DNA of 48,936 bases, taken from positions 1-48,936 of IMG/VR virus record IMGVR_UViG_3300020220_000088; one strand, given 5' to 3'. Below are positions 1-29,600 of this stretch, piece by piece. The notes beneath the pieces are model-generated. The model did no database searches and had not been told where the DNA came from. It was given only the letters and a program-made list of their open reading frames with translations. The stretch's first letter is position 1. Each line of letters begins with the position of its first letter. The translations under genes and the position numbers were made by a program. Source of the DNA: a virus.

Positions 1-2016
1 TACGGCATACATGTTTCCACGATGACTTGCTGCTACAGATTGCCATAAATCAGAATTCATTTGTATTGGAGATGAGTTCTTTCTTGCCCAGTCACCACGA
101 ACTTGACCATGATCATTATGCCCCCATGCCCAAAGACTATCATCAGACTTTGTTGCTAAAACATGATACACAGTACCATGATTTCCATTCCATCCTTCAT
201 GTCCATAAGAAGTTCCTACTGTTTTCCATGTCCCTGGAATTTGATTCGGTGATGATCGTGAAGTTGTATCATTTTGACCTAAGTGCCCATGGGCATTGTG
301 ACCCCAACTATATAAGGATCCATTTGTTTTTCTTGCATAGACTCCATGATAATTAGTTGAAACAGTATCCCAATCAGTATCAGATCCGATTTGAATTGGA
401 GAAGAAGTATCGACATTATATCTATTTCCACCTTGTCCCCATCCACCGGTTCCCCAGTGCCACAGGGTTCCGTTAGTTCTTATGCCAAAAGTGCTGTAAA
501 GACCACTAGTAATAAAACTCCAAGATCCAGGAATTTGAATTGGAGAACTTCTGCTTTCAGAGAAAACATCTAGACTTTCATCCCAACCCATACCATAGAG
601 ACGATTATTACTATTAATTAAGTATACTCTTCTAGGAGAAATTGAAATTTTAGGCCAGTTGTTAGTTCCTCCAGGTGCCATAACTTGAACTGGAGAAGAA
701 TAATTAATATATTCTTCGTACTCTCTATTTGGAGTTACGACAGCACCTGCTGGGTAACTATGACCCGAACCAAGAAGTCTTCCGCCGTTTCTACCCCATC
801 CCCAAATACTACCATCTGATTTTCTTGCCCACACATTAGTAGCGCTTCCCCAAACATTAGTCCAAGTGTCAGCACCAATTTGTTGTGGAGAAGAAGCGTT
901 GGCAGTGTTATTAATTCCAAGATTAACATGTTCATATCCTCTACCTCCATGCCCCCATCCCCATAAAGTTCCACCAGTTTTAATACCAAAAGCACATCTT
1001 CCAGCACCTACAATATCAATCCAACTTCCTGATACTTGCACTGGTGATGCAACACTATTTGATGTGGAATTATTTCCAATTTCTCCTACAGGATTATGTC
1101 CCCATGCCCATAGAGTATTATCGGTTTTTATTGCATAACATGCATGCGACCCTGCAGAACATTTACTCCAATTGGAAAGAGTACCTACTTGAGATGGAGC
1201 ACTTCTGCTAGTTGTATCATTTTGACCTAATTCTCCATGGCCGTTGTAACCGCATGTCCAAAGAGTTCCATCAGTTTTAACACCAACAAATCCTGTATAG
1301 AAAGATGCTAATTTGTCGGACCAGTTGAGTCCAGTAACTTGAACAGGTGAAGATCTTGGCGTTGTTGTGCCGTCTCCCAATTGCCCATGGTTATTAACTC
1401 CCCATCCCCATAAAGTTCCATCAGTTTTACCTGCCAACATCCAAGAAGCAGAGAAATCGTCCGAATACCCTTCATGTCTCTTTACAAATGCCCAATTTGT
1501 ATCAATACCTACTTGAACAGGTGATGAAAACTTTATTTGTGAGTAGTTTGAATCTACTCCACCAACACCATGGTTATTAGATCCCCATGTCCAAAGAGTT
1601 CCATCAGTTTTAATTCCCACTCCTGCTGATGCAACTGCATTATGATCTTTTGTTGTGGCAACGTCTAACCAATTATAATCAGAAAATACAAGAACTGGAG
1701 AAGTTCTTTTTTGCCCCATGCTGGATTGTCCAGTTATACCAAGTCCATCATGTCCCCATGCCCAAAGAGTATTGTCATTTTTAATTCCAAATTGTGCATG
1801 ATAACCAGAGTTGGTAATTATTTTCCAACTTGGAGAACTAAGTCCAAATGCCTGAACAGGAGAAGAGGAATCTCCTTCTTGACTTTGCCTTCCTAATTGG
1901 TTATGTGAATTACTTCCGGAAGTATATACATTAAATACGCCGAAATCGTCATTCAAAGTTTTGTTATAGTGTCCTGACAAACTAAAAGAATTTCTCTTGT
2001 GATAACTCTTTGGCAT
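1..2016 (-). CDS. RCC1-repeat tail fibre-like protein (C-terminus beyond window)
   Basis: Open frame from an ATG at 2014-2016 to the left edge with no stop, giving 672 visible codons. After a short N-terminus (begins MPKSYHKRNSF) the protein consists of about a dozen repeats of roughly 50 residues. Each contains the RCC1 signature: a DGTLWxWG strand, an NxxGQLG turn, then SSPxQI and a W at the start of the next blade. RCC1 repeats are known to build seven-bladed beta propellers; a phage protein with this many would form one or more propellers or an open solenoid. Its place beside two other RCC1 genes and the fibre block suggests a host-recognition or decoration role, which is inference. The start lies 32 bases downstream of an ATAAATA box. 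The preceding gene in transcription order is the DxD glycosyltransferase-like gene ending at 2054. The C-terminal architecture is unknown because the gene is cut by the window. Confidence 0.8.
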   Translation of the reverse strand, partial: MPKSYHKRNSFSLSGHYNKTLNDDFGVFNVYTSGSNSHNQLGRQSQEGDSSSPVQAFGLSSPSWKIITNSGYHAQFGIKNDNTLWAWGHDGLGITGQSSMGQKRTSPVLVFSDYNWLDVATTKDHNAVASAGVGIKTDGTLWTWGSNNHGVGGVDSNYSQIKFSSPVQVGIDTNWAFVKRHEGYSDDFSASWMLAGKTDGTLWGWGVNNHGQLGDGTTTPRSSPVQVTGLNWSDKLASFYTGFVGVKTDGTLWTCGYNGHGELGQNDTTSRSAPSQVGTLSNWSKCSAGSHACYAIKTDNTLWAWGHNPVGEIGNNSTSNSVASPVQVSGSWIDIVGAGRCAFGIKTGGTLWGWGHGGRGYEHVNLGINNTANASSPQQIGADTWTNVWGSATNVWARKSDGSIWGWGRNGGRLLGSGHSYPAGAVVTPNREYEEYINYSSPVQVMAPGGTNNWPKISISPRRVYLINSNNRLYGMGWDESLDVFSESRSSPIQIPGSWSFITSGLYSTFGIRTNGTLWHWGTGGWGQGGNRYNVDTSSPIQIGSDTDWDTVSTNYHGVYARKTNGSLYSWGHNAHGHLGQNDTTSRSSPNQIPGTWKTVGTSYGHEGWNGNHGTVYHVLATKSDDSLWAWGHNDHGQVRGDWARKNSSPIQMNSDLWQSVAASHRGNMYAV

Positions 2017-2041
2017 TATACTACTCTTTGGTATTAATACT
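2005..2041. repeat. Imperfect tandem duplication over the start of the left RCC1 gene
   Basis: Two adjacent units, 2005-2022 (ACTCTTTGGCATTATACT) and 2023-2041 (ACTCTTTGGTATTAATACT), differ by one substitution and one inserted base. The first unit contains the start codon of the RCC1 gene on the minus strand. In the second unit the equivalent triplet reads ATA instead of ATG, as if a start region had been duplicated and one copy lost its start codon. Confidence 0.7.
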
Positions 2042-2047
2042 TTTTAT

Positions 2048-2054
2048 TATTTAT
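2048..2054 (-). promoter_or_regulatory. T4-late-type promoter box ATAAATA upstream of left RCC1 gene
   Basis: The minus strand reads TGATAAATAATA over 2045-2056. The ATAAATA core resembles the T4 late promoter consensus TATAAATA and lies 32 bases before the ATG at 2016. The preceding gene's stop codon TGA (2054-2056) overlaps the box by one base. Function is inferred from motif and position only. Confidence 0.5.
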
Positions 2055-2746
2055 CAACTAAAAAATTCATCTTTAGATATAATCTCTTCGCACTTGTCAT
2101 AAAAAATGGAATTCCAGATTGATAATCTAGATTCAAACAAGTGAAAAAACATTTCTTCACCATTTTCTCTAGAAAACGTAGTTCCTATTCCAAATTCTGT
2201 TTTACCTTCTCCTAAATTCCAAATAGTTCCATGTCTAGGTCTTCGCACAAAAGAAGAAGGCATAAACATTTCAATTTTTACTCCTTTTTCTTCAGCAAGA
2301 TATGTATATTCTTCTCCAATATCTCCCCTATCAGTAATGGCAAATTTTAATCTATTGTATTTTGAAAATGTTTCTTTAGATATACAAAAACATGATGGTG
2401 CAACATATAAGTGTTCATCGTTTTTAATGTGACATGATCTCTGAACATTACCAACCAAAATCCCTTTTTCAGCTTGTTCAAAGGTATATTGGAGTGCCTC
2501 TGTACTTAGGGGAATACAATCCACATCTAAGACAAGAATAACATCATATTCCTTATCATAAAACAGATGAGACACTGCATAGTCCATAACTTTATCTGGA
2601 CTAATTTCATATTCACTAGCATTGTACATTAATGGTTCAAATGTACAATCTTCTAGTGTATTAAATTTATCAATAATCTTTTTTTGATGCTTTACTAGTT
2701 CCGGATCAACTTGAAAATTATAGTAAGTAAAAATTGCTTTTTTCAT
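2054..2746 (-). CDS. DxD-motif glycosyltransferase-like protein
   Basis: A 230-residue protein starting MKKAIFTYYN. A hydrophobic strand (residues about 68-73, DVILVL) runs straight into DVD at residues 74-76. This is the usual arrangement of the metal- and nucleotide-sugar-binding DxD motif of GT-A-fold glycosyltransferases. A later segment (about 139-175, DRGDIGEEYTYL then SSFVRRPRHG) could carry acceptor or catalytic residues, but I cannot assign them. There is no signal peptide or membrane segment, so it is probably cytoplasmic. It is the last gene of a four-gene run with two oxygenases and a GT9-like enzyme, 20 bases after the latter, so its substrate may be set by theirs. The exact family, sugar and acceptor are unknown. 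The start is the first ATG after the upstream stop; no clear Shine-Dalgarno sequence is seen. The glycosyltransferase call rests on the DxD context rather than on whole-family recognition. Confidence 0.6.
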   Translation of the reverse strand: MKKAIFTYYNFQVDPELVKHQKKIIDKFNTLEDCTFEPLMYNASEYEISPDKVMDYAVSHLFYDKEYDVILVLDVDCIPLSTEALQYTFEQAEKGILVGNVQRSCHIKNDEHLYVAPSCFCISKETFSKYNRLKFAITDRGDIGEEYTYLAEEKGVKIEMFMPSSFVRRPRHGTIWNLGEGKTEFGIGTTFSRENGEEMFFHLFESRLSIWNSIFYDKCEEIISKDEFFS

Positions 2747-2766
2747 TGAATTTTATAGAAATGTAA

Positions 2767-4092
2767 TTATGAGTCTTGAATCAACTCAGGTACTAGTTTG
2801 AACAATTTATTTATTGCCTCCGACCAATCGTTATATTTTGTTTGCCTTATTACAGTTACATTATCACCATACCATTTTATATCATCAGATGCCCAAATAA
2901 AATATGGAACTAATGGGACTAAAACAATAGTTTTTTTACCCATAGCAGCTGCTAAATGAGCTGTTGATGTGCAAGAAGTTACAATCAAATCCATCTGAGA
3001 AAAAACATCATAAGTATCTGACCAGTTTCTAATAAGATGTCTCAAATCCCAAACATTTTCATTCTTTTTCAAATCTTCTTTATCATCAATTTGAATTGAA
3101 AATAACTGACCATGTTCTTGTAATTTTAATAATGGTTTTAGGGGAAAACTTCTAAATTGATCGTGCTCAAATTGAGGATTTCCCTTCCATTTTATACATA
3201 TTTTTTTCTTGCCTTTTGCGATCTCGTCCAGTTCTGGAATATATTTTGATTCTTTTATAAGATAAGGTTTATGGTCATTGACTACAGGAGAATCTAATTC
3301 CAGTAAATACGGTGCAGACATTGCAGGAACAAATTTGTCCCATTTTTCCTTTAAAATTTCTTTAATGCAATAAATGTTTTCATATCCACAATCATGAAAA
3401 AATGCAACAAGATTTTTATCTGCGAATATTTTTACATTTTTTGCATATTTTTTAAAACATTCCGCATAACGAATGAATATCATCTCATCGCCAAGACCAC
3501 CTTCAAGAGTAAATGCTATTGTATCTACATGTTCTCCATTCCATCGTCTTTCTTTTGTAATACCATAGTCTCTTTCAAGAATCCACTCATTTCCCCAAAC
3601 ATGTAGATCTGCACCACTTACAATATACTTAAATCCATCTTTAAACCTATTGTGACCTAAACAATGCCAACCATAGTTAAATCTTGCTTGCGGAGAAATG
3701 TCTACTAGTTTTCCAAGTCCTTCATATGTTTCTTCAAACTTTCCTTGAGCAGTTTTGTAAAGAAAGAGGTCGACCTGATTATCTGGAGTATTCAAAAATT
3801 CTTTGGATATTTTGTTTTCTAAAATCCATTCTGCTTTATTAGCTTCTCTCAAATAATAAAAACAACGCGCTCTGTTTAAATGATATGTTTCTTCATGTGG
3901 ATAATATCTCAAAATTTCATTAAGACAATCTAAAGATTTATCAAACTTTTTTAAGTCGAAATAATTCTTGGATAATGCGTGTAAAATATTGGGATCTTTA
4001 TGTTTTTTCAAATAAACTTTTGCAAGTTCTTTGGATGCCTTTGGCTCATTTGAATCAGTCAGATCAAAAATTAATTCTCTAATCAGTTCCAT
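2767..4092 (-). CDS. TPR-domain glycosyltransferase, GT9/heptosyltransferase-like
   Basis: A 441-residue two-part protein. Residues about 15-135 are helical and look like tetratricopeptide repeats (for example NILHALSKNYFDLKKFDKSL and YPHEETYHLNRARCFY). The C-terminal part has marks of TPR-linked GT-B enzymes related to glycosyltransferase family 9: EGGLGDEMIFIRY at about 197-209, CIKWKGNPQFEHDQFRSFPL at about 299-318, and DLIVTSCTSTAHLAAAMGK at about 368-386. The last is the donor-site segment where an invariant-type His follows a T/S-rich turn. Such enzymes transfer sugars from nucleotide donors, and the TPR part commonly binds a protein or glycan acceptor. The start overlaps the end of the upstream oxygenase by 10 bases and lacks a clear Shine-Dalgarno sequence, suggesting translational coupling. 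Acceptor candidates are the adjacent RCC1 fibres or host surface glycans; neither is proven. Confidence 0.75.
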   Translation of the reverse strand: MELIRELIFDLTDSNEPKASKELAKVYLKKHKDPNILHALSKNYFDLKKFDKSLDCLNEILRYYPHEETYHLNRARCFYYLREANKAEWILENKISKEFLNTPDNQVDLFLYKTAQGKFEETYEGLGKLVDISPQARFNYGWHCLGHNRFKDGFKYIVSGADLHVWGNEWILERDYGITKERRWNGEHVDTIAFTLEGGLGDEMIFIRYAECFKKYAKNVKIFADKNLVAFFHDCGYENIYCIKEILKEKWDKFVPAMSAPYLLELDSPVVNDHKPYLIKESKYIPELDEIAKGKKKICIKWKGNPQFEHDQFRSFPLKPLLKLQEHGQLFSIQIDDKEDLKKNENVWDLRHLIRNWSDTYDVFSQMDLIVTSCTSTAHLAAAMGKKTIVLVPLVPYFIWASDDIKWYGDNVTVIRQTKYNDWSEAINKLFKLVPELIQDS

Positions 4093-4670
4093 TTTGTTTT
4101 TGTGTCAGAAGGAAGTCCTAAATTTGGTCTAGTATCAAAAAGATTATCTTTGAATTGTCCTTGAGCATCTACATAATGCATGAACAATTGATAATGTTCT
4201 TTTCCATCATATTTCTCTCTCCAGTGAGATAGTTTATTTCCTTTGTAAACTACTGCATCACCTATTTCTAGGTTGATACCAACAATTTCGTTACCTTCAT
4301 TTTGAATATAAAGTGGCCATTCAATATTTTTTTCTTTGAATAAGCACACAGATACTGAATGTTCACATTCTGGTCTATCGACATGAGGAAGTAATTCAGA
4401 GTCATTCAAATATATTCTAGCATAAGTATATGTTGGAAACAAATCTACTTGAATTGTTTCTGTTAAAGAACCACAGCACATGGATAAGAGAGTGTCAAAT
4501 GCAGGGTCTCCATAAATTGATTTTGATTTATCAACTTGCCCATCCCCATTTTCAAGTTGTTCATTTTTATTCAATAAGTCCAAATAATTTGCAAGATAAA
4601 GTGCAAATGGTTTTGGTATAAAATTTTTAATGACAACATATCCATCTCTAAGATAATCTAAGTGTTTCAT
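4083..4670 (-). CDS. 2-oxoglutarate/Fe(II)-dependent oxygenase (HxD...HWRE type)
   Basis: A 195-residue protein with the double-stranded beta-helix metal triad in view: H96-V-D98 in LLPHVDRPECEH, and H149 in LSHWREKYDG followed by a FMHYVD strand (about 163-168). This HWRE arrangement is typical of a phage and bacterial 2OG-Fe(II) oxygenase group. Members use oxygen and 2-oxoglutarate to hydroxylate a substrate, often a protein side chain. The residue binding the 2-oxoglutarate carboxylate is not obvious. The N-terminus (YLRDGYVVIKNFIP) matches the usual first strand of the fold. It overlaps the preceding oxygenase gene by 23 bases and the following glycosyltransferase by 10, indicating one operon. 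A purine-rich GGAGAAG lies just before the ATG. The substrate cannot be read from sequence. Confidence 0.8.
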   Translation of the reverse strand: MKHLDYLRDGYVVIKNFIPKPFALYLANYLDLLNKNEQLENGDGQVDKSKSIYGDPAFDTLLSMCCGSLTETIQVDLFPTYTYARIYLNDSELLPHVDRPECEHSVSVCLFKEKNIEWPLYIQNEGNEIVGINLEIGDAVVYKGNKLSHWREKYDGKEHYQLFMHYVDAQGQFKDNLFDTRPNLGLPSDTKTKWN

Positions 4671-5241
4671 ATACTTTCTTCTCCGTTATTATCCATGAAA
4701 CAATTGTGTGCTTGACTCCCGAAGTTACGGGATGAACTTTATGTGGATATTCTTTGTAAGCAGGAAATGCCAACAAAGTTCCCTCTCTGGGTTTAAATTT
4801 TATCCCCAAACTAGTCAATTCTATTTCACCTCCCTCATAATCATCATTTAAATAATACAATACTGCAATATCTCTTGGAACAACTCTTTCCCAGACACCA
4901 TTTTTAAAAAATTCAGAATCATTATGTTCAATATAGTGTCCTCCTACAGGATATTCTAGAAATTGAGGAGGTTCTATATCAATTAGAGTTGAGTTATATT
5001 TTGGCTTTAAAAATCTTTCGTGAGCTTGATAAATTGTAAAATTTAGTTTATTCCGTAAATCTTCAGGAATTGGATACCAAAGAGTATTTCTATCTTTTAA
5101 TTTAACACTTTCAGCGTCACTAGAACTATTACCAACTGTAGCTGAAGAAGGTTCTTGATTTGTTAATTCACGCAAAATATTAATATTTTTACTTGGAATG
5201 TAATTAGGTACAATTACAATCAAATCATAAGGATTAAACAT
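4648..5241 (-). CDS. 2OG-Fe(II) oxygenase, prolyl 4-hydroxylase-like
   Basis: A 197-residue protein. The C-terminal half matches the P4Hc pattern: H106-N-D108 in GHYIEHNDSE, a strand with YYLNDDYEGGEIEL (about 129-142), EGTLLAFPA (about 153-161), then H167-K-V-H-P-V-T-S-G-V-K177. The residues H106, D108 and H167 fit the iron triad, and K177 takes the place of the usual Arg or Lys that binds 2-oxoglutarate. Prolyl 4-hydroxylases hydroxylate proline in proteins; phage members may act on other residues. The N-terminal about 90 residues are unlike common P4H sequences and may choose the substrate. It is the first gene of the four-gene cassette, preceded by an ATAAATA box at 5269-5275 and by the 747-residue RCC1 gene ending at 5284. 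Confidence 0.85.
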   Translation of the reverse strand: MFNPYDLIVIVPNYIPSKNINILRELTNQEPSSATVGNSSSDAESVKLKDRNTLWYPIPEDLRNKLNFTIYQAHERFLKPKYNSTLIDIEPPQFLEYPVGGHYIEHNDSEFFKNGVWERVVPRDIAVLYYLNDDYEGGEIELTSLGIKFKPREGTLLAFPAYKEYPHKVHPVTSGVKHTIVSWIITEKKVYETLRLS

Positions 5242-5268: not shown

Positions 5269-5275
5269 TATTTAT
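5269..5275 (-). promoter_or_regulatory. T4-late-type promoter box ahead of the oxygenase/glycosyltransferase cassette
   Basis: The minus strand reads AATAAATAGT, with the ATAAATA core 28 bases upstream of the ATG at 5241, in the short gap after the 747-residue RCC1 gene. The position suits late transcription of the four-gene cassette as one message. No other promoter-like element is evident inside the cassette, whose genes overlap or nearly abut. Confidence 0.5.
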
Positions 5276-5283
5276 TATGCGTA

Positions 5284-7527
5284 TTAATACTTGGTTCCGA
5301 CAACAAAACTCTTTCCAACAGAAACATTAACCCAAGCATTTCCGGTAATTTGAACTGGAGACGAGATAAACTCTGGTAAAGATGTTCTAGAACCACTAAG
5401 AGGGAAATTAATATTTCCCCAATTCCAGACTGTTCCATCAGTTTTTTTGGCAACAACTGTAGTTTCACTCATATCAAAACTTTCCCAAGTTGTACCTGGA
5501 ATTTGAACAGGAGATGAATGATTTTGTGAAAGATTAAATCCTGGATTTAATTCTATTCCCATAAAGTATAATTCACTATCTTGAGTTTTTGTTACGAAGA
5601 TTTTTCCTGCACCAGAGGAAATTTTTGTATTTGAAGTGAAGTCCCATCCAGTTGATCCAGATGCAATTTGAACAGGTGAAGAATAGAATAATGTAGTGTC
5701 ATTTGAAATGCCAAATACCCCATTCGTATTATCTCCCCATCCCCATAAAGTTCCGTCATTTTTAATTGCAACCACATATGTAGGACCTGCTTCAACTCTT
5801 CTCCAATCTGCACCTGGAATTTGTGTGGGTGATGATCTTGCCATCCTGTCAGACTGACCTAATTGTCCGGCATCATTATTACCCCATGCCCAGAGAGTTC
5901 CATCAGTTCTCTTTGAAACGCTAAATCCGTCTCCTGCAGATGGGTTATCATAACCAGTACCTAAAACTAAAGCTGGACCAATACCATTAGTTCTGTTATT
6001 TGTTCCAAGTTCTCCGTTAGTATTAATTCCAACCGCAAAGAGAGAAGAATCTGATCTTAGTAGAAGAGTATGATATCGTCCCGGAGCAACACCTGCCCAT
6101 GTTGTTCCGGGAATTTGTGTTGGTGAAGATCTATTTGCAGTATCACCTACACCAATTTGACCAAGATCATTTCTACCCCAAGCATACAGAGATGCATCAT
6201 TTCTTAGTGCAAATACTCCACTATCTCCATTAGCAAAAACTGAAGCCCAAGAAGTTCCTGGAATTTGAACAGGTGAAGATGAATTGATTCCAACTCCACC
6301 ATTATTTCCTATTTGCCCAAAAACATTTGCTCCCCATGCAAACAAAGTTCCATTTTGTTTTACGCAATAAGAATTACTTAATCCAGCACCGGCAATTGCC
6401 CAATCAGAACCGATTATTTGTGTAGGTGAACTTTGTGTCGAAACATCTCCAGAATAATTTAATCCACTTTGTCCAAAGGCATTAGAACCAAAATGGAATA
6501 GTGTATTGTTATTTTTTAGTGCTAGTACATGACTTCCAAACTTTGAGGCACTAACAGAAGCCCATGCTGTACCAAGAACTCCTACGGGAGAAGTTTTTCT
6601 AACAATTAAATCTTGTCCTAATGTTCCATAAACTCCATTTCCCCATGCCCACATTGTTCCGTCAGTTTTAATACCGACTACTACGGATCCACCACCCTTT
6701 ACTTGCTTCCATCCTGGTGAAATGAATATGGGAGATGCAGCATTTGTAGTATTATTTCTTCCTAATTGCCCTCTACTATTGCTACCCCAACAATATAAAG
6801 CATTATTTTGTACAGTGATGCCTAAAGTTGACTCTCCATACATTTGGGCAAATTTCCATCTTCCAGGAACTTGAACTGGGGATGAATAGTGAGTTGTATT
6901 TTCCATAGACCCAAGTTGTCCGGAGTCATTTCTTCCCCAAGTGTATAAAGATCCCTCTCCTCTTATTGCTAGGGATGACCATGCACCAGCAGAACATAAA
7001 GACCAATCGGAACCAAAAATTGAAATAGGTGCAGAAATATTTGTTCTGCTGAAATAGTCTTGTGCGTCTGCATCTCCAGATAATCCCAATTGTCCATAAT
7101 CATTAAGTCCCCATGCCCAAAGAGTTCCATTGTGCTTAATTGCCAAAGAATGATTTCCTCCTTCTTTGGATGCGGAAAGGTATCTCCAATAAACGTCACT
7201 ACCAACAATTTGTGTTGGAGAAGAATACGATCTAGTATCTTTTGTTCCAAGTTGCCCATGATTATTTCTTCCCCACACCCAGAGAGAACCATCTGATTTT
7301 GTCGCTAAACAATATCCATCACCAGCACTAAAATTATCCCATAACTCACTACCTATTTGTGTTGGAGAATTTTTGGATTGCCTTAACCCATTTGCAAGAC
7401 TTCCATTTACATCAAATCCAAAAGAATAAAGAGATCTTCCTTTGGATTCATCCCAAGAATTGAGATTTATCTTATCGGTTACTTCATTGAGTGCCCAGAC
7501 TCCTTTTTTACTGTAGTAATATGACAT
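5284..7527 (-). CDS. RCC1-repeat tail fibre-like protein, 747 residues
   Basis: After about 40 unique residues (starts MSYYYSKKGVWALNE) the protein is a run of about 14 RCC1-type repeats of some 50 residues. Recurring pieces are DGSLWVWGRNNHGQLG, SSPTQIPG and a W before each GxxH/GxxS turn. The last repeats are less regular and the protein ends in VGTKY with no separate C-terminal chaperone or receptor domain. RCC1 repeats normally form seven-bladed propellers, so 14 would suit two propellers. There is no signal peptide. Flanking genes are the 208-residue unknown protein upstream and the oxygenase cassette downstream. No ATAAATA box or strong Shine-Dalgarno sequence was found before the start, so it may be read through from the gene before it. 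A structural or receptor-binding role is inferred from location in the fibre block. Confidence 0.8.
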   Translation of the reverse strand: MSYYYSKKGVWALNEVTDKINLNSWDESKGRSLYSFGFDVNGSLANGLRQSKNSPTQIGSELWDNFSAGDGYCLATKSDGSLWVWGRNNHGQLGTKDTRSYSSPTQIVGSDVYWRYLSASKEGGNHSLAIKHNGTLWAWGLNDYGQLGLSGDADAQDYFSRTNISAPISIFGSDWSLCSAGAWSSLAIRGEGSLYTWGRNDSGQLGSMENTTHYSSPVQVPGRWKFAQMYGESTLGITVQNNALYCWGSNSRGQLGRNNTTNAASPIFISPGWKQVKGGGSVVVGIKTDGTMWAWGNGVYGTLGQDLIVRKTSPVGVLGTAWASVSASKFGSHVLALKNNNTLFHFGSNAFGQSGLNYSGDVSTQSSPTQIIGSDWAIAGAGLSNSYCVKQNGTLFAWGANVFGQIGNNGGVGINSSSPVQIPGTSWASVFANGDSGVFALRNDASLYAWGRNDLGQIGVGDTANRSSPTQIPGTTWAGVAPGRYHTLLLRSDSSLFAVGINTNGELGTNNRTNGIGPALVLGTGYDNPSAGDGFSVSKRTDGTLWAWGNNDAGQLGQSDRMARSSPTQIPGADWRRVEAGPTYVVAIKNDGTLWGWGDNTNGVFGISNDTTLFYSSPVQIASGSTGWDFTSNTKISSGAGKIFVTKTQDSELYFMGIELNPGFNLSQNHSSPVQIPGTTWESFDMSETTVVAKKTDGTVWNWGNINFPLSGSRTSLPEFISSPVQITGNAWVNVSVGKSFVVGTKY

Positions 7528-7575: not shown

Positions 7576-8202
7576 TTAGGTTGGTACTTCCATCAAACGA
7601 AGTCCAATTTTTTCTTCATCTGTTCCGGTTTCTTTAATTCTTTCTTTTTCAATATAACTAAACCATTCCCATCTAGACGAGAAACTTAAATTATAATAAG
7701 GAACTCTTAATTCTGATCCTGCAAAAGAAAGAACTTCCATTCTATTATCCCACAAGTTATAACTTTCAATAGGATCAGTATCATCAAAAACAAAATTTTG
7801 CAATTGTTCAATAATCTTATTTTTTAAAGTAGTAACAGTTTTTTCTATTAAAGATACTGAATAAGGTCTATATGGATCTTCGGGCGCGATTCTTTCAGAT
7901 TCTCTTTCTACAAATGCAGATACGTGCTCTTCAAGATTTGCAATTCTTTCTTCGGTTATTTGGTCAATTTTCGTTTTAATTTCAAAAGCAAATGTTCCCT
8001 TTGAAATTTCAAAAATATTATTGTCTTCATCGGCAGTTGCAGTCTCCCCTGCTTCAGCATAAACCCATTGTCCGTCTTTTGAAAAAGTAATTACTTTTAA
8101 TTCTGGGAGGTTGGGATGTGTCAGCCCATTAACTGCTGGTTGTAGTCCTACAGAAACTCCAGTTACAGAATCTACTTGTTGGTATTTAAAAAATTTAGCC
8201 AT
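7576..8202 (-). CDS. Unknown protein between RCC1 fibre genes
   Basis: A 208-residue protein that I do not recognise. Residues about 1-80 look beta-rich (ends DGQWVYAEAGE then EISKGTFAFEI). Residues about 85-150 are charged and probably helical or coiled coil (EERIANLEEHVSAFVERESE, then TLKNKIIEQLQNF). The C-terminal part (about 160-208) includes SSRWEWFSYIEKERIKE and ends in MEVPT. It starts MAKFFKYQQVDSVTGV at an ATG preceded by AGAGG and, 22 bases upstream, by an ATAAATA box. It sits between the 410- and 747-residue RCC1 genes with gaps of 34 and 48 bases, so a role as trimerising stem, adaptor or fibre assembly factor is plausible but unproven. Confidence 0.6.
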   Translation of the reverse strand: MAKFFKYQQVDSVTGVSVGLQPAVNGLTHPNLPELKVITFSKDGQWVYAEAGETATADEDNNIFEISKGTFAFEIKTKIDQITEERIANLEEHVSAFVERESERIAPEDPYRPYSVSLIEKTVTTLKNKIIEQLQNFVFDDTDPIESYNLWDNRMEVLSFAGSELRVPYYNLSFSSRWEWFSYIEKERIKETGTDEEKIGLRLMEVPT

Positions 8203-8236: not shown

Positions 8237-9469
8237 TTATAATGTTTGCTTGGGTTGATTATATCTATAATAATTCACGAGAGCAACATGTTGTCCCCCA
8301 CCGGAAGCCCATCCAGAACCTGGAAGTTGAACGGGAGAATTTCTAGAGCTTCTATCAAAAACTCCAAGATTTCCATCATGATTATAACCAACGGATCTTA
8401 AGGAATAACCATCTTCTTGTAAATAAGTAGCAATTCGTCCACCAGAAGCATATCGAACATTAAAGTTCCTTCCTTGGAGTGGGTATTCTAAAGTGCTTGG
8501 GGAAGTCAATAATCCAGACTGTCCATGATTATTGTGCCCCCATCCCCAATAAGTATTATCATTCTTCATGGCAAACATGTGATGCTCTCCACCACCTACA
8601 AAATTCCAATCTCTGTGACCAACAACTTGAGTTGGTGAAGATAAATTTATAGATCCATATGGTCCAAAATATTGTGCAAGAGCTCCATGTCCATTATGCC
8701 CCCATGTCCAAAGAGTTGTGTCTTCTTTTATAGCAGCACAAGATTTTCCACCAAAAGCTCCAATTTTTCTCCAATCTGCACCTGGAATTTGTGTTGGTGA
8801 AGAACGATTATTCAAATCATTTTGACCTAATTGCCCATGATCATTGAGACCCCATAACCAAATCGTGTTATCTTCTTTCATAACACCAGACCAACCAAAT
8901 CCAATACTGAGATCTCTCCATCCATATCCCACAATTTGAGTGGGTGAGTATCTTGTCAGTTTATCATTTAATCCCAGTTGTCCAAATTGATTATCCCCCC
9001 ATGTCCAGAGAGTTCCATCTTCCCTAAGAGCAAGAGTGTGTCCAGAAGTATTTCCTGAAGGTGATAAAATATCTTTCCATGTTGTTCCTGGAATTTGTGT
9101 TGGTGAAGAACGATGAATTGAATCACCAAGACCAAGTTGTCCAACGTCGTTTCTTCCCCATGACCACAAAGTTCCATCAGATTTTAATCCTAGTGTGAAC
9201 TCATGCCCACATGTTGTTTTAATCCATTGAGAACCTGGAATTTGTACAGGAGAACTTCTATTAAATAAATCAACACACCCTAATTGCCCATAATTATTAA
9301 GACCACAAGTATATAATTCGCCAGATGAAATAATTTCTTCATATTTACTTTGAGGTTCTGTATCATCATCCGATAGATAATATTTTTCTGTCATATTTGA
9401 CAAAGACAATGCACCCTTTGTCCCTTCATATCTTTTATACGAGATAGAAATATTTTCAAATGAGTCCAT
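8237..9469 (-). CDS. RCC1-repeat tail fibre-like protein, 410 residues
   Basis: The N-terminal about 50 residues (MDSFENISISYKRYEGTKG) are unique. About seven RCC1-type repeats follow, first seen as GELYTCGLNNYGQLG and then with regular DGTLWSWGRNDVGQLG, HRSSPTQIPGTTW and AIKEDTTLWTWGHNGHG pieces. Seven repeats are the number expected for a single closed propeller, so this is the most canonical of the three RCC1 proteins here. It ends with a short unique tail (VNYYRYNQPKQTL). A good AGGAGT Shine-Dalgarno sequence (9475-9480) precedes the ATG. The gene follows the 311-residue beta-domain gene by 36 bases. Location suggests a distal fibre or decoration protein; the enzymatic exchange-factor role of eukaryotic RCC1 should not be assumed. 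Confidence 0.82.
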   Translation of the reverse strand: MDSFENISISYKRYEGTKGALSLSNMTEKYYLSDDDTEPQSKYEEIISSGELYTCGLNNYGQLGCVDLFNRSSPVQIPGSQWIKTTCGHEFTLGLKSDGTLWSWGRNDVGQLGLGDSIHRSSPTQIPGTTWKDILSPSGNTSGHTLALREDGTLWTWGDNQFGQLGLNDKLTRYSPTQIVGYGWRDLSIGFGWSGVMKEDNTIWLWGLNDHGQLGQNDLNNRSSPTQIPGADWRKIGAFGGKSCAAIKEDTTLWTWGHNGHGALAQYFGPYGSINLSSPTQVVGHRDWNFVGGGEHHMFAMKNDNTYWGWGHNNHGQSGLLTSPSTLEYPLQGRNFNVRYASGGRIATYLQEDGYSLRSVGYNHDGNLGVFDRSSRNSPVQLPGSGWASGGGQHVALVNYYRYNQPKQTL

Positions 9470-11328: not shown

Positions 11329-12565
11329 AATTTTTATTTCTTAATTGTTTAACTTCTTCTTGAAGTTCTACAACTTCTTCTTTTAATTCTTTAATTGCTT
11401 CAATTAAAACAGCAACAATACCATTATAATTAACTCTTTTTATTTCTTCGGTGGATACCAGTTCTGGTATTACCTCTTCAATATTTTGTGCTATTACGCC
11501 AACAGATGGTTTTCCATCAGTAATCCAATTAAATCTAACACCTTCAAGTTGCGATACTAAATTTAAAGCAGTATCTATTCTAGAAATATTGGTTTTTAAA
11601 CTAATATCTGAGGTTGAATTGAAGTCTGAAGCACTTACTGTGCCAGAGCTCTTAATATTTCCAGATACATCTAATAATTCAGTAGGAACATCTGAACCAA
11701 TTCCTAATCTACCATTTGCTTTCTCAAAGGTAAATTTTGGCGTAGATGAAGAACTAATTACAAAGTTAGTGCAATCAGTTTGCAAATCCAATACTAATTT
11801 ATTAGATCCCCCATTATAAGAAAGTTGAGCATCATCTGATGTTCCGAGTCTAAGAACATCGGAATCAGATAAATCTATAGCTTCATTTACATTTAAAACA
11901 TTAAAATAACCATTAGACCAATATGTACTAGAACTTCCCACATTTCCAGTGTTGTTTACTGGAGAAATAACATCTTTTACAATAAAAGATGTTAAAGTAC
12001 TAATTCCAATAGTTGCTTGACCTGCACCAAAAAAACCAGAAAAATTACTGGTAAAATTTATTGTACTTGCAGTTCCAAGTGGACTATTATTAATTAAAAT
12101 TGGAATTCCTGCGCTAGAAGTGGCAACAATTCCAAATAACGCAGACCCATCAAGAGCAGGAAGTGCTCCATAAAGTGAAGATGATGGAACACTGGTTAAT
12201 CCAACTGCACTACCCTTAAAAGAAGTTGCAGTAATAATTCCTATAGTGTTTATATTAACTGTCGATGATAAATTATCAACTAAAGCAGATCTAAAATTTG
12301 TTTCCGTTGTAGTATCTATACTTGTTATATTTTTTAATTGTCTGCCACTGCTTATCACTTGAGTACTTCCAATAGACAATGAGGATAGAGAAGTACTTGT
12401 TAAGTTTGATAAATCTGCTCTTGCTAATTCGTAACCACCAACTTGAGAACCATCATGTACCCTCAAAGAGTTTGTAGAGGAATTAACAGACAACTCACCA
12501 GCAGCTCCCTGGAAATTGTTATTTTGTGTCCCAGTCCCTCTTCTAAATTGAACTATAGTTGGCAT
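11324..12565 (-). CDS. Tail fibre with Mtd-like N-terminus and S74 intramolecular chaperone
   Basis: A 413-residue protein. The N-terminus (about 1-52: VQFRRGTGTQNNNFQGAAGE, then LRVHDGSQVGGYELAR) closely resembles the N-terminal domain of Bordetella phage major tropism determinant, a trimer that anchors receptor-binding proteins to the virion. The middle is a repetitive beta shaft, including NTGNVGSSSTYWSNGYF. The C-terminal about 100 residues form a peptidase S74 (endosialidase-type) intramolecular chaperone: STSDISLKTNI carries the Ser and the Lys five residues later that form the self-cleavage dyad, then GVIAQNIEEVIPELV, YNGIVAVLIEAIKELK and a coiled-coil tail. Such chaperones trimerise the fibre and are then cut off. 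It is a likely receptor-binding fibre. The start is preceded by GAGG. Confidence 0.85.
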   Translation of the reverse strand: MPTIVQFRRGTGTQNNNFQGAAGELSVNSSTNSLRVHDGSQVGGYELARADLSNLTSTSLSSLSIGSTQVISSGRQLKNITSIDTTTETNFRSALVDNLSSTVNINTIGIITATSFKGSAVGLTSVPSSSLYGALPALDGSALFGIVATSSAGIPILINNSPLGTASTINFTSNFSGFFGAGQATIGISTLTSFIVKDVISPVNNTGNVGSSSTYWSNGYFNVLNVNEAIDLSDSDVLRLGTSDDAQLSYNGGSNKLVLDLQTDCTNFVISSSSTPKFTFEKANGRLGIGSDVPTELLDVSGNIKSSGTVSASDFNSTSDISLKTNISRIDTALNLVSQLEGVRFNWITDGKPSVGVIAQNIEEVIPELVSTEEIKRVNYNGIVAVLIEAIKELKEEVVELQEEVKQLRNKNL

Positions 12566-12585
12566 GAGTTTTTTCCTCTATTTAT

Positions 12586-13176
12586 TTAAGTTAGGACTTC
12601 AAAGTCGTAAGAAGCAATACTTCCTGCTGGTTGTGTTAAACAATCGAAAGAAGGGATCAAAGGAATTCCGAATGCATCAGTGGTTTGATTTAAATTTCCA
12701 TAATCTCCAGTTGGGAAAGTATCAATTAATAAAGAAATAGTTGCAATTCCAAGAGTAGATGCTGCTGATATTTGAGCACCAACTATATTTAATATAGTTA
12801 CAGCGGTGCCAACTAAAACTCCTTCATCTTGAATATTAATACCAGAAATTCCACCAGATCCACCTTCAATATTAATGGTAGCAATCCCCGCAGAGACAGT
12901 AACCGTAGAAATTCCAGTCCCTTTAAAGTTGAGAATAGATGCCCCAGTTCCTACATTATTACTATCATATTGAATTCCAACGTCTATTCCAGTTAAGTTA
13001 GATCCATCTCCATAATAATAATTGGCGGTAACATTTCCATTAAAGGTTCCACTACCCTTTACATGAAGTTTAGTGGTCGGTGTAGTTGTGCCAATACCAA
13101 CTCTATCATTAATAATATCGACAAAAATATTATTATCAGAAACTAGATTGGCACTTTGCCTGTTTTTACCTGCCAT
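12586..13176 (-). CDS. Short tail fibre-like protein, 196 residues
   Basis: A 196-residue protein. It starts MAGKNRQSANLVSDNNIFVD, passes through RVGIGTTTPTTKLHVKGSG, a common phage fibre element also found before S74 domains. It then carries the YYGDGSNLTGI shaft module and the NFKGTGISTVTVSAGIATIN piece shared with the 180- and 1550-residue proteins. A second similar piece (VGTAVTILNIVGAQISAAST) follows, and it ends SIASYDFEVLT without a chaperone domain. It could be an independent short fibre or a remnant split from a longer one; the frame is intact with an AGGGA ribosome site. It sits between the two S74-bearing fibres. Function beyond virion structure cannot be read. Confidence 0.65.
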   Translation of the reverse strand: MAGKNRQSANLVSDNNIFVDIINDRVGIGTTTPTTKLHVKGSGTFNGNVTANYYYGDGSNLTGIDVGIQYDSNNVGTGASILNFKGTGISTVTVSAGIATINIEGGSGGISGINIQDEGVLVGTAVTILNIVGAQISAASTLGIATISLLIDTFPTGDYGNLNQTTDAFGIPLIPSFDCLTQPAGSIASYDFEVLT

Positions 13177-13218
13177 TACTTCATATTTCCCTACATTTTT
13201 TTAGTGACAAATAATATT

Positions 13219-16200
13219 TTAACTATTTATTTCACCTAAAATTTGGTGTTTTAACATTTTAATTTCATTTTGTTGTTCTTTAACACACTCAATTAATAAT
13301 GCAATCAATCCATTATAATTGACGGATTTTGTTTCTTTGTTGGAAACAATATTAGGAAGAACTTTTTCAACCTCTTGAGCAATAACGCCCATTGAAGATC
13401 TATCATCACTCTTCCAATCAAAAGTAACTCCTGTGATTTGAAGAAGTTTTTCTAATGGATTTTCAATCTGAGCGATATTTTTCTTTAAATTAATGTCAGA
13501 AGAAGAATTAAAATCAGTTGCTGTTACGATTCCACTTACAATTGCATCACCATAAACATCAAGTTTTGCTGTTGGCACCAATGTTCCAATACCGACGTAA
13601 TTAGAAACTGTAGTAATTATAGTTCCGCCGACCCCAATATTAAAACTTGTTGCAGTTAAAACACCAACAGAAATACCATTAGAAGTTGTATTATCTCTTC
13701 CAGTAACTGAGTTTAAAGTATCAGTTTCAGTGTATGATGTTAAGTATGTGTTGGTATCTTCAGTTCCATTTGCTTTTAAGAATCCACCACTATTTGAACT
13801 CTTCACAAAAGAATTAGCAGTTACTATTCCTGTGGAATTGACATTACCAACATTTAATGAATTGAGAGTTCCAACAGAAGTTAAAGAAGATATAGTAACA
13901 CCAGAACCAAGAGATGTGGATGATAAAACATCTACCCCATCAATTTTATAAGTTCTGCCAGATGAAATATTTAAGTTTTCACTGGATTTAAAAGCAGTAT
14001 TAGTATAGTCATATAAAAATGTATTATTTGGTCCAATTTTAATACCAGCTCCATCTGAAAGTAAATCAGTTGTTGCTGTAGAAGCAATACCAATAACAAA
14101 ATCTGCAAGTTCTATAGTTGTAGAATTGATAAATGTTTGAGATCCATCAATAAACAAATCGCCTTTAATTCGCAATACACCGGTATTATCTCCTATACCT
14201 GCAGGATCAATTACAATTTCTGATGGTCCAGTAATTGTATTATTAGTAATATTAATTCCTGTACCAGAATTGCCCGTGGATAATCTTGATGCAGTAACAA
14301 TTCCTGTTGTATTAACATTGGAATTTGAATTTAATGCTGTTGCTATTCCTGCGGAATGTGCATATGTAGCAATTCCTGCTATATCTGCATATGGTGCAAC
14401 AGAAGCCACTGCATTAATTGTTATTTCTCCATTGGTTCCATTTATAGGACTAATAGTTATATTAGTTCCAGCCTTAATCGCAGTTACAATTCCAGTTAAA
14501 TTGGATCCACTTCCAGAGAATGATGTAGCAGTAACAATTCCACTTGTAACTGTGAGTCCTGACGAAATAGTTACATAACTTGTCAATCCTACTTGAGGAG
14601 TTGAACCTTCTCCAGTGCCATTATTAACGATAATTTGATTTGATGTTCCACTTAAAGAATGTACATAATCTCCGGATGTATGATCTCCGAGAGAAATTGA
14701 ATTTGCAGTAATTGAAGAAGCAAGAGAAACATTATTTGTACCATTAAAAGATACTGCGGTTGCAGTAATCGGTCCAGTAATATTAAAATTTCTTGAATTT
14801 TGAAGTTTAGTTGCAGTAGAAGCAGTTCCTATTAAATCACCGTAAATAGTTGTTGCTGTTAAAATTCCACTAATATAGGTATTTCCATATACAGTTAAAG
14901 AAGAATTTATTGATGGACTTCCAATTGTTACTGGAGAAATAGTAGATATCCCAGATCCTTCACCAGGTTGCCCCCATACGGGATCTACTCTAATGATATT
15001 GAGAGTATATGTAATAATTTCAATAATGTCTCCTTCAGATGCACCTTCAGTTAAAATGACAGATGTTTCATTAGTGGCGGTAAAATCAGAAGAACTTAAT
15101 TTTATACCATTCAAATATACATCAGCATACCCAATACTATAAGTAGCAGCAAATGTAGTTTGACCTGCAGCAGAAGTATAAGTATAAATTACTCTCGATG
15201 TTCCTGGAATATTAATTGTAGTTATTCCAGAATTAGTAGTAGAATAAATTGTAGATATGCCACCACCAGTGAAATTAAAAGTAGTTGTGGCAGTACTAAC
15301 TAAAATATTATTGTAACTGACTGCAGATTCTGCTGCTCCACCTTCAATTGTGATAATACCTGTATTATTTTCAATAACAACTGAAGCAATTCCACTTCCT
15401 CTGAAATCTAGAGTAGTTGCTCCAGTTCCTACAAAAGTAGAATTAATTCCTAATCCAACTCCAGTAATTATATTTTGTAAATATTGACCGTCTCCATAAT
15501 AAGTTATAATTCCAGAAGTTGCTGTTATAATACCAACAGTACTAATTGATACTTTTCCTAGTGTAGAAATTCCAGTTACATTTAAATTATTAAATGATGG
15601 ATTGTCTGTTAGTTCAATTGTCGCTTGTCCAAAAACACTAGATGATGCTGTAATATTATTACCAATAAAATTTAAAATATTAAATTCATTAGGAGAACCT
15701 ATTAAATTACCTTCGTCATAAATCGAAAGACCTGTAATAGCATTTGATGGAGCAGCATTAGCCCATACAATTCCATTTGCTGTAGAACTTACTACTTGAC
15801 CAAGTGCACCTGGACTATTATTAAAATCATATAAACGACTACGAATTCTTATATTACCATTAACATCCAATAATTGTGTTGGGGTAGTTGTTCCAACACC
15901 AACTCTATTTGTCGTATCATCATAATAAAGATTTAAAGAACCCCCAATTATTCCATTATTATTATATTGAAACTGCCCATCAATACCAGCCGCATTTATT
16001 GATGTTGCAGAAATTCCAGTTAATTTACTACCATCTCCATAATAAACTACAGTTGTAACACCAGGATTAGTTGATGTGATGATACCTGTTGTCGAGATAG
16101 AAACAGTACCTATCGTTGTGATACCATTTACATTTAATTCATTAAGAGTCCCAACTGAAGTTAGAGAAGATATAGTAACACCAGATCCAAGAGTTGTGGA

Positions 16201-22632: not shown

Positions 22633-23067
22633 CTATTTATCTTCAATATTTTTATTTTGTTTTATGAGTTTTAAAAGATCCGATGTTGATCCAACAAAAA
22701 GTGCATTTGTTACATTTGTTGGATTTTTTGATTTTGTTTCATCAATGTCTTTCAACTTTTTTTGTAAATCTAATAATTTATCAGTAGCATCAGCTACATT
22801 TTTAATAAGTTGTCCTGCTACCTCATATGCCCTTGGTTGGTCAGTTTCTTGAGCTAATTCTAAAATAGAATTTATTGCTTCTTGCCCCTTTTCTATTAAA
22901 GAATATAAGTTTCCTCTGGTATATTGATAATCTTTATCTATATCGTCGTTTGATTTATTGATTTCAGGTCTAGTTGATATTACTTCAGATGAAACTTCTA
23001 TACTTAAATTTTCGTTTGAATCTTCAATATCAAAAGTTTGGTTTAATTTTTCAAATTTATCTTTCAT
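22633..23067 (-). CDS. 16: Terminase small subunit gp16
   Basis: A 144-residue protein, close to T4 gp16 (164). The central helical part, YTRGNLYSLIEKGQEAINSI, then ELAQETDQPRAYEVAGQLIK, and a coiled-coil TDKLLDLQKKLKDID, matches the small terminase of marine T4-like phages. T4 gp16 forms rings that regulate the gp17 motor during headful DNA packaging. The acidic N-terminus and the tail (NALFVGSTSDLLKLIKQNK) are also family-like. It starts 2 bases after the gp15 stop. gp17, which follows gp16 in T4, is not next here: fibre genes are. The last codons (GATAAATAG) form a late promoter-like box for the following gene. Confidence 0.88.
   Translation of the reverse strand: MKDKFEKLNQTFDIEDSNENLSIEVSSEVISTRPEINKSNDDIDKDYQYTRGNLYSLIEKGQEAINSILELAQETDQPRAYEVAGQLIKNVADATDKLLDLQKKLKDIDETKSKNPTNVTNALFVGSTSDLLKLIKQNKNIEDK
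22634..22640 (-). promoter_or_regulatory. T4-late-type promoter box overlapping the gp16 stop codon
   Basis: The minus strand reads GATAAATAGTT; the ATAAATA core encodes the final Lys and most of the TAG stop (22633-22635) of gp16. The next start, at 22580, is 54 bases downstream. It marks the probable beginning of fibre-block transcription. Confidence 0.5.
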
Positions 23068-26602: not shown

Positions 26603-29600
26603 TTATGCTAATGCAATAGCTCTCAATTCTTTAATTAGAGGAACATTTGCTTGATCAGTTCCTGTCATAATAATTTTAATTGAAAACTTGTTGAATGATG
26701 GTAAATTGTCAATACTATATTCATATTCTGAGAATTGCTTTTCTTTATTATTTGGATTAATTTTTACATTAGAACTTGCAGTATTTTTTGATGAATCTAT
26801 AACTTGTCCGTTTACATCAAGATTTTCATATCCAGGGAATGGTTCATAGAATGGAGAATCTGTTGAACTATCATCTCTAAAAATTCTATACAGAACTTTA
26901 ATCTCAGATGTTTCTGGTCTATATGCACCAAACAAAACTTTAAGTGAAGTTGCTGGATTTGCTAATTTAATATCATTAGAAACGTAAACTGCAGAGTGAA
27001 TATCGTTTAGAGGATTTCTTGTGCTACGAACTCTTTCTGTATTAGCAGTCCAATTATCAACTGGGGCATCAATTTTATTGGACGTAAAGATAACATTAGC
27101 TCTATCAAGATCAATAACTGGAGAAACTCTATCATCACCTGTGAACATATCAATTGCACAAGTAAATGATTTATTACCGGGTAAATCAGTTAATTGGGAT
27201 TCTTCATTTTCCGGAGAGGCAATCATTCTTAAAGTAGTTAAGTCAGTTAGTGCTCCTGAAGTAATGTCTATTGGTTCAAATCCTTGATCTAGGAAAGAAA
27301 TTTCACTTCCATTAACACTTGTAGCACTGATTGTTCTAATTCTTCCAGAAATCCCAGTTCCTTTTGGAGTAAATGTTTTTATATTTGGTGTGATTGTTGA
27401 GAATACAATGTTTTGGGAAGCGGTAAATGTATCTAATCCTTCTCTAGTATAATTTGAACTTGATCCATTCTTTGTTTGATTAAAGAACAGATCTGGAAAA
27501 TCTGGATTTCCGGATCTACTAATTCCTCTGGTAGTATCACTCATATCAAGTTTAATATGATAATTATCTAGATTGATAGGAGTAGGAACGGTAGCTAAAG
27601 GTGCGGACATATTATGAATCCTATTAATTCTTCTTAGTGACACTCCATTAAATTCATACTTATAGACATTATCGTTAACTTCGTGTTGCTTTGCTTTGAG
27701 TTCTTTAAAGTTATCAGAATCAATTGCTCTTGTAATACCAGTTAAAGTATTATTAGATGAATTAGTTCCAGTATACTCAATAATTTCTTGTTCAATCTTA
27801 ACATAACCTGGATTTGTGCTAGAAACACTTACATTTTCAAAAGTTGTAAAAATACCAACATTTGAAACTTCAATTGAAGTAGTTGCATTTGTTGCATATC
27901 TTGCTAAGAGAGTTGCTGGTTTAATATCTGATTTTACTCCACGAATAAGAACTAAGTTGTTCGTAGAATTCATTCCGTGACTTGGGTTGGAAATTCTAAA
28001 GTGAAGACCATCATTCGTTGCATTTTGCTTGCGATAAGAAATTGTTGCAACTCCAATAGCACTTGTAACTCCAGCATTTGTTACAAATGTAGCAAGTTTT
28101 CCAAGGAGAGATGAAGTCGTACCTTGGACATTATCCAAAAATAGTGTATTAACAGAAGACAGAGAACTAACAGATAGTTGTGCGGAAGTGCTGCTAATAA
28201 TTGAAGAAGGAATTCCAACAATGTCTCCAACACGATAACCAAATCCACCATTAACAACTGATGTAATTCCAAGTTGATTTGAAGCAAATGTAACATTTAC
28301 AGTTAACCCTTCTCCTTCTCCAGTTATTGTGTCTAAAGGGACATTATTAATTGAGGTATTTGTATATCCACCTCCAACGTTTGTGGTTGTAAGTCCAGAA
28401 GGAGAGCTAACGGAACCAGCAAATCCCACTAGTTTTCCACTTAAGTTTGTGTCCGTAACACCAATACTTACGCCTAAAGTTAATGGAATTGCTGAAACAC
28501 TTGTAGATAATCCAAGTACAATTTTATTTGAAAGTGCATCAAGTGAACTAGGTTCTAAAGAAATTCTCGTATCATTTATAACTTTATCATTATCTTCCTT
28601 TGCTGTTCCAGGAATTGGGTTATATAATGAGAAGGTTGCTGGAGTTGTATTAAATTTAGCTCTGTACAGAGTAAACTTAAGATCTTCATACCCACTTGGT
28701 TCCCAAGTAGAACCATTCTGAGATTTAAACAGTGAACCAAGAGTTGGTTGTTGTGCAACAATTCTTTTTGCAGATTCTGGTAAATCTCTAGTTTGAATAT
28801 CTTCTTCACCCATTCTAGAAATCCAAACTTGATATTCTGTAGAATCGGAAAGAAGAACAATGGCATACTCTTTACCATTTTCTAGATAAACAGGAGCATC
28901 AAATTTGACTTCTGTTTTTTTAGATGCATCTGTAGATGGAGTTATATCTGCAGGAAGAACCTCTACTTCAGAAAATGGAAGAGGTAGAGATGTTGGTATA
29001 CCATTTTCAACTGTTCTTAATTGAACTATGACTGGTTTTTTAATTTGTACACCATTAACAGTGTAAACACCAACATCTTTCTTAAAAAAATACAAGTCTA
29101 ATTTTGTTACAAAAACTCCATTAGGTTCTGAAATTGTAAAACTCTGAGCTAAAGGATCTTTTGTATTACACTTTGCAGCTGGTGTCGATTTTGATTTAGT
29201 AACTCCGGTGGAGGAACTAACAATATTTGTAGAAGAATTTACTGTAGAATCTACACTTTGAACTGTTCTAGTTCTAGAATCTGGAACTACAGTTCTAGTA
29301 ACACTCGCATTTCTGATACTTAAAATTGTTGTTTCTTTTTCTTGAAGAAAACCCTGTGCAAAATAATCTTGCTGAGCAAAAGAACTTACAGTGCCACCAA
29401 CGGGATCATCTTCATCGGAGTCAGTTAACTTGAAATTTCTAATTCCAGTCTCAAATTTTCTTTCTCCATTATTGGGAAGATAGAATGAACCAATAAGTGT
29501 TCCCACTTCGTCAGAAATTAATCTCTGACGAGTTACTGTTGCGGAAGCACCACTATCTTCACCACGTAACTTACAATTTTTTCTTATTTGACCCCAGAAG

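Follow-up and report, generated by a model that had tools for sequence, protein, structure and literature searches.

A viral gene island that may glycosylate RCC1 beta-propeller tail fibers

The IMG/VR virus record IMGVR_UViG_3300020220_000088 (positions 1 to 48,936; this whole stretch of 48,936 nucleotides is referred to as the window) is from a T4-like water virus and carries on its minus strand a cassette of four genes, encoding a prolyl-4-hydroxylase-type 2-oxoglutarate (2OG) oxygenase (OxA), a second, divergent and putative 2OG-type oxygenase (OxB), an enzyme composed of N-terminal TPR repeats and a C-terminal GT-B glycosyltransferase domain (TPR-GT), and a predicted GT-A glycosyltransferase with a DxD motif (the DxD protein). 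Based on gene content, gene order, conservation, linkage to RCC1 genes and protein folds, all computed here, these four genes probably open a phage island that is expressed late and attaches sugars to the virus's own RCC1 beta-propeller tail fibers. It is the combination of this RCC1 linkage with the precedents of FlmG and TibC that points to an O-glycosylation island dedicated to the fiber.

To survey the linkage, we scanned IMG/VR with a TPR-GT profile and removed near-identical TPR-GT proteins to define a non-redundant set; because the loci were ordered by how closely they resembled the query, the counts are not independent, and many of the contigs are fragments. RCC1 genes were present in 68 of the 73 viral TPR-GT loci (51/55 non-redundant), with an RCC1 open reading frame (ORF) at most 110 bp upstream of TPR-GT in 30 of these 68. 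By comparison, a set of loci centered on OxA relatives in other viruses, which serves as a control for gene neighborhood in viral contigs rather than as a matched phylogenetic control, contained neither RCC1 (0/79; Fisher p ~1e-32) nor TPR-GT (0/79). Three of the four exceptions lacking RCC1 (L139, L170 and L175) lie on contigs that are truncated on the upstream side, and their close relatives have RCC1. A reverse scan starting from RCC1 recovered TPR-GT in 53 of 76 loci, and a search of 50,697 phage records yielded RCC1 in 40 and TPR-GT in 4 (3 distinct phages), all 4 of them with RCC1. The pair is present in two cultured cyanophages (S-SRM01, grown on Synechococcus KCZYC6, and BUCT-ZZ01, with one RCC1 and one TPR-GT gene), and it also occurs in contigs of metagenome-assembled genomes assigned to Bdellovibrionales, Bacteroidetes, Methylobacter and Planctomycetota. 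We found no published description of the pairing in a literature search that left out most subscription journals. An earlier, sequence-only reading of this DNA had called for a survey of whether cassette and RCC1 fibers co-occur; the cassette does co-occur with RCC1, whereas OxA-type oxygenases in general do not.

The RCC1 propellers are best read as fibers because the RCC1 proteins of a related virus (G002) carry an N-terminal tail-fiber domain (PHROG 18673, E 9e-14). The same virus harbors six tandem RCC1 fiber genes, ~53-62% alike (G002 44260-55882, equivalent to L026 4260-15882), possibly a repertoire of fiber tips.

The TPR-GT protein (2767-4092, minus strand; 441 aa) is a putative fiber O-glycosyltransferase. 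Its AlphaFold2 (AF2) model (pLDDT 94, pTM 0.90) consists of an N-terminal TPR superhelix (residues ~1-165), the repeats of which are also detected by sequence, and a GT-B glycosyltransferase domain. The best Foldseek matches of this model are SPINDLY (E 2e-9) and bacterial and human OGT, followed by GT9 heptosyltransferases (WaaF, 1psw, E 2e-5, TMt 0.51; 3tov, TMt 0.53). Assignment to GT9 by sequence was rejected, since the score against Pfam Glyco_transf_9 is 14.9 bits for a cut-off of 22 and just one of 51 TPR-GT members reaches E 0.003, even though the GT-B fold is there. None of the 51 members matches GT41 in Pfam, even though they share its TPR plus GT-B architecture. The earlier label of a TPR-GT9-like enzyme thus holds for the TPR repeats and for a GT-B fold resembling GT9, but not for the GT9 sequence match. 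The N-lobe contains an invariant GxGD (G199, G201, D202), at what we take to be the position where GT9 enzymes hold their catalytic Asp. Given this architecture, shared with cytoplasmic protein O-glycosyltransferases, and the linkage to RCC1 across highly divergent viruses (51/55 loci versus 0/79), the glycosyltransferase is best interpreted as a modifier of virion fibers, as the sequence-only reading had proposed.

The DxD protein (2054-2746, minus strand; 230 aa) returned no sequence family, and a single-protein scan with it recovered the same virus only. Its AF2 model (pLDDT 83) gave weak GT-A matches in Foldseek to the LH3 glycosyltransferase domain, COLGALT1, b4GalT7 and KdsB (E ~1e-5, TM ~0.5), and its 74-DVD-76 motif is conserved, with D74 and D76 both invariant. 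Judged by this model, the DxD protein is a GT-A glycosyltransferase, a TM of ~0.5 speaking to the fold class only. Two variants of TPR-GT were also observed: a second, shorter paralogue (29% identical) further down the island in L003 (18233-19306), and a protein in BUCT-ZZ01, a phage infecting the model strain Synechococcus elongatus PCC 7942, in which the TPR-GT C-terminus is fused to an apparent S-adenosylmethionine (SAM) methyltransferase domain (L010 5860-7584) and whose gene begins ~40 nt after an RCC1 gene.

We infer a substrate, donor, order of steps and biological effect along the following lines. While virions assemble in the host cytoplasm, TPR-GT would use its TPR domain to bind the RCC1 fiber protein, and the GT-B domain would transfer a first sugar to surface loops of the propeller, the first candidate acceptors being the near-invariant Ser-Ser of an SSPxQ(I/V) turn. 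Our leading guess for the donor is heptose from ADP-heptose, because relatives of the HldE kinase, the HldE nucleotidyltransferase, a HAD phosphatase and HldD lie downstream. The DxD protein, a GT25 enzyme and other glycosyltransferases might then lengthen the glycan, which in relatives may be capped by a sulfotransferase and a methyltransferase. Hydroxylation by OxA and OxB, of the fiber (perhaps at the second SSPxQIPG Pro) or of the glycan, would be an optional decoration or one made in parallel. The outcome could be altered host-receptor binding, fiber stability or masking.

The candidate substrates flank the cassette on both sides, as had been noted earlier. Directly upstream of OxA lies an RCC1 beta-propeller fiber gene encoding 747 aa (5284-7527, minus strand; Pfam RCC1 E 1.6e-75, WD40_RLD E 2e-109), followed further upstream by a second candidate of 410 aa (8237-9469, minus strand; Pfam RCC1 E 1.5e-42). 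Downstream, the window holds the 5' part (1-2018, minus strand) of a third RCC1 fiber gene, the complete 1183-aa ORF of which occupies 12077-15628 of a longer contig (L002) that is 99.97% identical to the window and extends past its end. Between the two upstream RCC1 genes sits orf208 (7576-8202, minus strand), which is retained at this position in L001, L003 and roughly twelve further loci and is found in every cassette locus reaching that far. This protein has no Pfam or PHROG match and is a candidate fiber adaptor or chaperone.

Within the cassette, the four minus-strand ORFs, their catalytic residues, the two overlaps (23 and 10 bases) and the 20-base gap agree base for base with the sequence-only reading. 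The marine single-cell virus MH319737.1 and six identical IMG/VR contigs present the arrangement RCC1-orf208-RCC1-OxA-OxB-TPR-GT-OxC-DxD-(OxD)-RCC1, in which OxC is an extra oxygenase between TPR-GT and DxD and OxD, found in the six contigs, is an OxA-like gene after DxD; most of this order is kept in about a dozen further IMG/VR loci. A DNA search with the first 20 kb of the window matched P-SSM2/P-SSM5-like phages and a marine single-cell virus, only along a 0.5 kb fiber stretch (71-72%). Independent viruses whose proteins are 45-56% identical share this gene order, so the arrangement goes beyond chance. A mere co-location of these genes in a plastic fiber region, devoid of any common function, would fit with islands that occupy different genome positions and vary in content, but it is made very improbable by the contrast between TPR-GT and control loci, the reciprocal 53/76 and the conserved order and overlaps.

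What the sequence-only reading missed is that the four genes open a more extensive glycan island that includes genes of the ADP-heptose type. Past the window end, the island continues with the 1183-aa RCC1 gene, GT25, a 2OG-Oxy_5 enzyme, a 211-aa conserved protein without a family match, taken as a glycosyltransferase from its neighbors, a set of heptose-type genes and a halogenase. The heptose-type genes comprise relatives of the HldE nucleotidyltransferase and HldE kinase (split, E 1e-38 and 2e-32), an EcbF-type HAD phosphatase, a cupin and an HldD relative (E 2e-63), and from these similarities the island would appear to encode an ADP-heptose pathway. The set is conserved in two other viruses, G002 and W01, with HldD complete only in G001 and G002 (W01 ends inside HldD), and Hld genes are present, rearranged, in distant TPR-GT loci; none was found in the 79 control loci around OxA relatives. 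Both G002 and W01 also carry a sulfotransferase, and G002 a rhamnosyl-O-methyltransferase-like enzyme and further 2OG oxygenases. In the window virus, the island separates the genes for the small (window 22633-23067) and large (L023 16389-18038) terminase subunits.

Several features of these genes were noted in passing. The HldE kinase relative (L002 17872-18621) is short, with 249 aa matching three separate pieces of a 315-aa model, and is of similar size in three viruses. Beside the HldE/HldD genes, all three viruses have a 117-aa cupin (L002 18985-19338) with a weak match to D-lyxose isomerase, which might stand in for GmhA, not seen here. Next to the heptose genes lie two tryptophan-halogenase-like genes (L002 20107-21309; G001 28765-30399 and 31807-32997, encoding 544 and 396 aa in G001) for which neither G002 nor W01 gave a match; conceivably, the glycan or the fiber is halogenated.

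Several points weigh against the proposed glycosylation of RCC1 fibers. RCC1 linkage by itself is no proof of substrate, and all nine RCC1 phages of Gram-positive and other hosts that were fetched lack TPR-GT. The donor is a guess because GT9 membership misses the Pfam cut-off; the NCBIfam heptose models give strong matches that fall below their curated cut-offs, and Hld genes are within reach of just 9 of the 55 non-redundant TPR-GT loci. OxA and OxB are missing from most TPR-GT loci, which loosens the tie of the oxygenases to the fiber. Finally, GT25 and HldE/HldD relatives are customarily read as lipopolysaccharide (LPS) genes.

These LPS-type genes are compatible with an island that makes or modifies host LPS or capsule and thereby blocks superinfection, and comparable phage genes have been read as LPS modification in the literature (PMC7029224, PMC9602691). 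We nevertheless consider such remodeling of the host surface unlikely, given that the key enzyme has the TPR plus GT-B architecture of protein OGTs and that TPR-GT follows RCC1 fiber genes across diverse phages. In addition, heptose is absent from cyanobacterial LPS (PMC4390846), so that, were the host a cyanobacterium, its LPS would be an unexpected target for an ADP-heptose pathway carried by a phage.

OxA (4648-5241, minus strand; 197 aa; H106/D108/H167/K177) matches Pfam 2OG-FeII_Oxy_3 (E 2.3e-14, 54.6 bits against a cut-off of 27). H106, D108 and H167 are invariant among 14 relatives, with K or R at 177, and a profile of these 14 relatives matches the solved bacterial prolyl-4-hydroxylases (P4H) 3itq/5hv0 (E 4e-14). 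By sequence, OxA is a P4H-type 2OG oxygenase, proline hydroxylation itself resting on similarity to the solved P4Hs. OxB (4083-4670, minus strand; 195 aa) has an HxD...H triad (H96, D98, H149) that is invariant in 12/12 relatives, two of which match 2OG-FeII_Oxy_2 weakly (best E 0.0017). OxB alone matches no Pfam family, its profile retrieved no 2OG enzyme and nothing relevant from the PDB, and a profile comparison with OxA gave no match. The family corresponds to PHROG 2954/3531, labeled 'ferrochelatase', a label we rejected on finding no ferrochelatase domain in a Pfam search of OxB and its relatives. Natural fusions of OxB with an OxA-like domain occur in PHROG 3531 and phage S-SCSM2R, in the latter of which the fusion gene is followed by a run of glycosyltransferase genes, and such fusion in one protein suggests that OxA and OxB act together.

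The oxygenases might instead act on free metabolites, on 2OG levels (nitrogen status, NtcA) or on sugars, and lie near fibers only through the hypervariable region. Cyanophages do harbor numerous 2OG oxygenases in a variety of contexts (OxA matches 323 records), and a function connected with 2OG and NtcA has been suggested (PMC3037559). However, OxA and OxB of this subfamily, at 42-56% identity, are consistently located between RCC1 and TPR-GT, and several oxygenases recur within the same island, so that we regard this explanation as somewhat unlikely.

In Dictyostelium Skp1 and in collagen, a prolyl or lysyl hydroxylase makes the hydroxyl on which a glycosyltransferase builds. A strict two-step scheme of this kind, in which OxA and OxB hydroxylate Pro in the RCC1 turn and TPR-GT glycosylates the new hydroxyl, had been suggested by the sequence-only reading. 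OxA is indeed P4H-like, and the DxD fold resembles the LH3 and COLGALT1 glycosyltransferase domains, among many GT-A enzymes. Among the 16 closest TPR-GT loci, OxA is present in 14 and OxB in 12, but neither occurs in any of the 39 distant loci, 35 of which have RCC1. TPR-GT is thus kept without need for OxA or OxB, and we rejected, by co-occurrence, an obligatory order of hydroxylation followed by glycosylation.

The loops themselves give a mixed picture of the earlier proposal that Pro in the SSPxQIPG turns is the hydroxylase target. The Ser-Ser before Pro is more than 90% conserved with or without OxA nearby, and the first Pro of the turn occurs in all groups, independently of hydroxylases, which disqualifies it as a hydroxylase-specific mark. 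The second Pro, which follows Q(I/V) at position +4, does track OxA, being present in 83% of loops in OxA loci against 7% in TPR-GT loci without OxA. L112 and L113 lack OxA, OxB, OxC and three neighboring RCC1 genes, and in the remaining RCC1 repeats of L112 the second Pro appears in ~1/13 loops (counted by eye). On the TPR-GT tree, however, OxA has one origin (2 changes, one of them read as a loss), so the correlation amounts to roughly a single event, and in L124, L114 and L117 OxA is present while the second Pro is found in 0-33% of loops. A comparison with Gram-positive RCC1 phages gave too few loops fitting the pattern. The association is a hint of a link between hydroxylase and fiber turn, and the strict two-step scheme appears doubtful enough to rank below remodeling of the host surface.

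Late expression of the cassette is in line with the placement of ATAAATA boxes, which agrees with T4-type late promoters. In the window, 12 of 17 minus-strand boxes lie 5-60 nt before ORF starts, where 0.5 would be expected. One (5269-5275, minus strand) is 28 nt upstream of OxA; the earlier reading had a single box preceding all four genes. Because another (2808-2814, minus strand) is located 62 nt ahead of the DxD gene, within the 3' end of TPR-GT, we rejected the first as sole promoter of the cassette. A further box (2048-2054, minus strand) precedes the downstream RCC1 gene by ~30 nt. In this region, sigma-70-like promoters and terminators were no more frequent than in shuffled background.

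Cyanophage 2OG oxygenases and phage glycosyltransferases have so far been without agreed substrates, being assigned to LPS remodeling or host nitrogen status, and the reciprocal genetic link between TPR-GT and RCC1 provides a concrete candidate substrate. It also proposes another role for phage RCC1 proteins, previously guessed to order DNA (PMC7247149). If fiber glycosylation is correct, recognition fibers would be decorated after translation, in a manner invisible to sequence-based host prediction. We put forward more tentatively, as possible rather than probable, that TPR-GTs dedicated to RCC1 tail fibers form a widespread, unrecognized class, to which one clade adds SSPxQIPG hydroxylases, a phage-borne heptose pathway, sulfation and methylation, giving rise to post-translationally built and possibly variable receptor-binding surfaces.

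Among known systems, FlmG of Caulobacter shares with TPR-GT an N-terminal TPR and a C-terminal GT-B domain and carries out cytoplasmic protein O-glycosylation, its TPR part binding the flagellin substrate (PMC7591256). In contrast, it is a bacterial gene acting on flagellin with pseudaminic acid, and it has neither paired hydroxylases nor RCC1. The BAHT family (TibC-TibA, AAH-AIDA-I) pairs a dedicated GT-B heptosyltransferase gene with a repetitive adhesin, and TibC uses ADP-heptose to decorate its adhesin (PMC4358343); TPR-GT genes are paired with RCC1 genes, whose products are candidate substrates. TibC, however, forms an iron-containing dodecamer and modifies autotransporters, whereas TPR-GT has TPR repeats and a putative donor. 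The GT41 enzymes SPINDLY and OGT, the best structural matches, are nucleocytoplasmic protein O-glycosyltransferases with TPR and GT-B domains, although identity is ~10-12%, TM is 0.3-0.4 over the whole chain and a Pfam GT41 match is lacking. With GT9 (WaaF 1psw, 3tov) TPR-GT shares the GT-B fold and the N-lobe GxGD, and it differs in a below-cut-off Pfam score, in its additional TPR domain and in the acceptor. The collagen LH3/COLGALT1 and Skp1 P4H-glycosyltransferase systems likewise join prolyl or lysyl hydroxylases to GT-A enzymes, with glycosyltransferase domains that the DxD fold resembles, but the main glycosyltransferase described here occurs widely without hydroxylases. Finally, the host-recognition cluster (HRC) of pelagi- and cyanomyophages is likewise a variable region of T4-like phages that combines tail fibers with numerous glycosyltransferases, and rfaE has been reported in it; the paper describing it does not mention RCC1 and proposes LPS modification (PMC7029224). 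The pelagimyophage HRC lies between VrlC and gp14, whereas the island of the window virus lies between the terminase genes.

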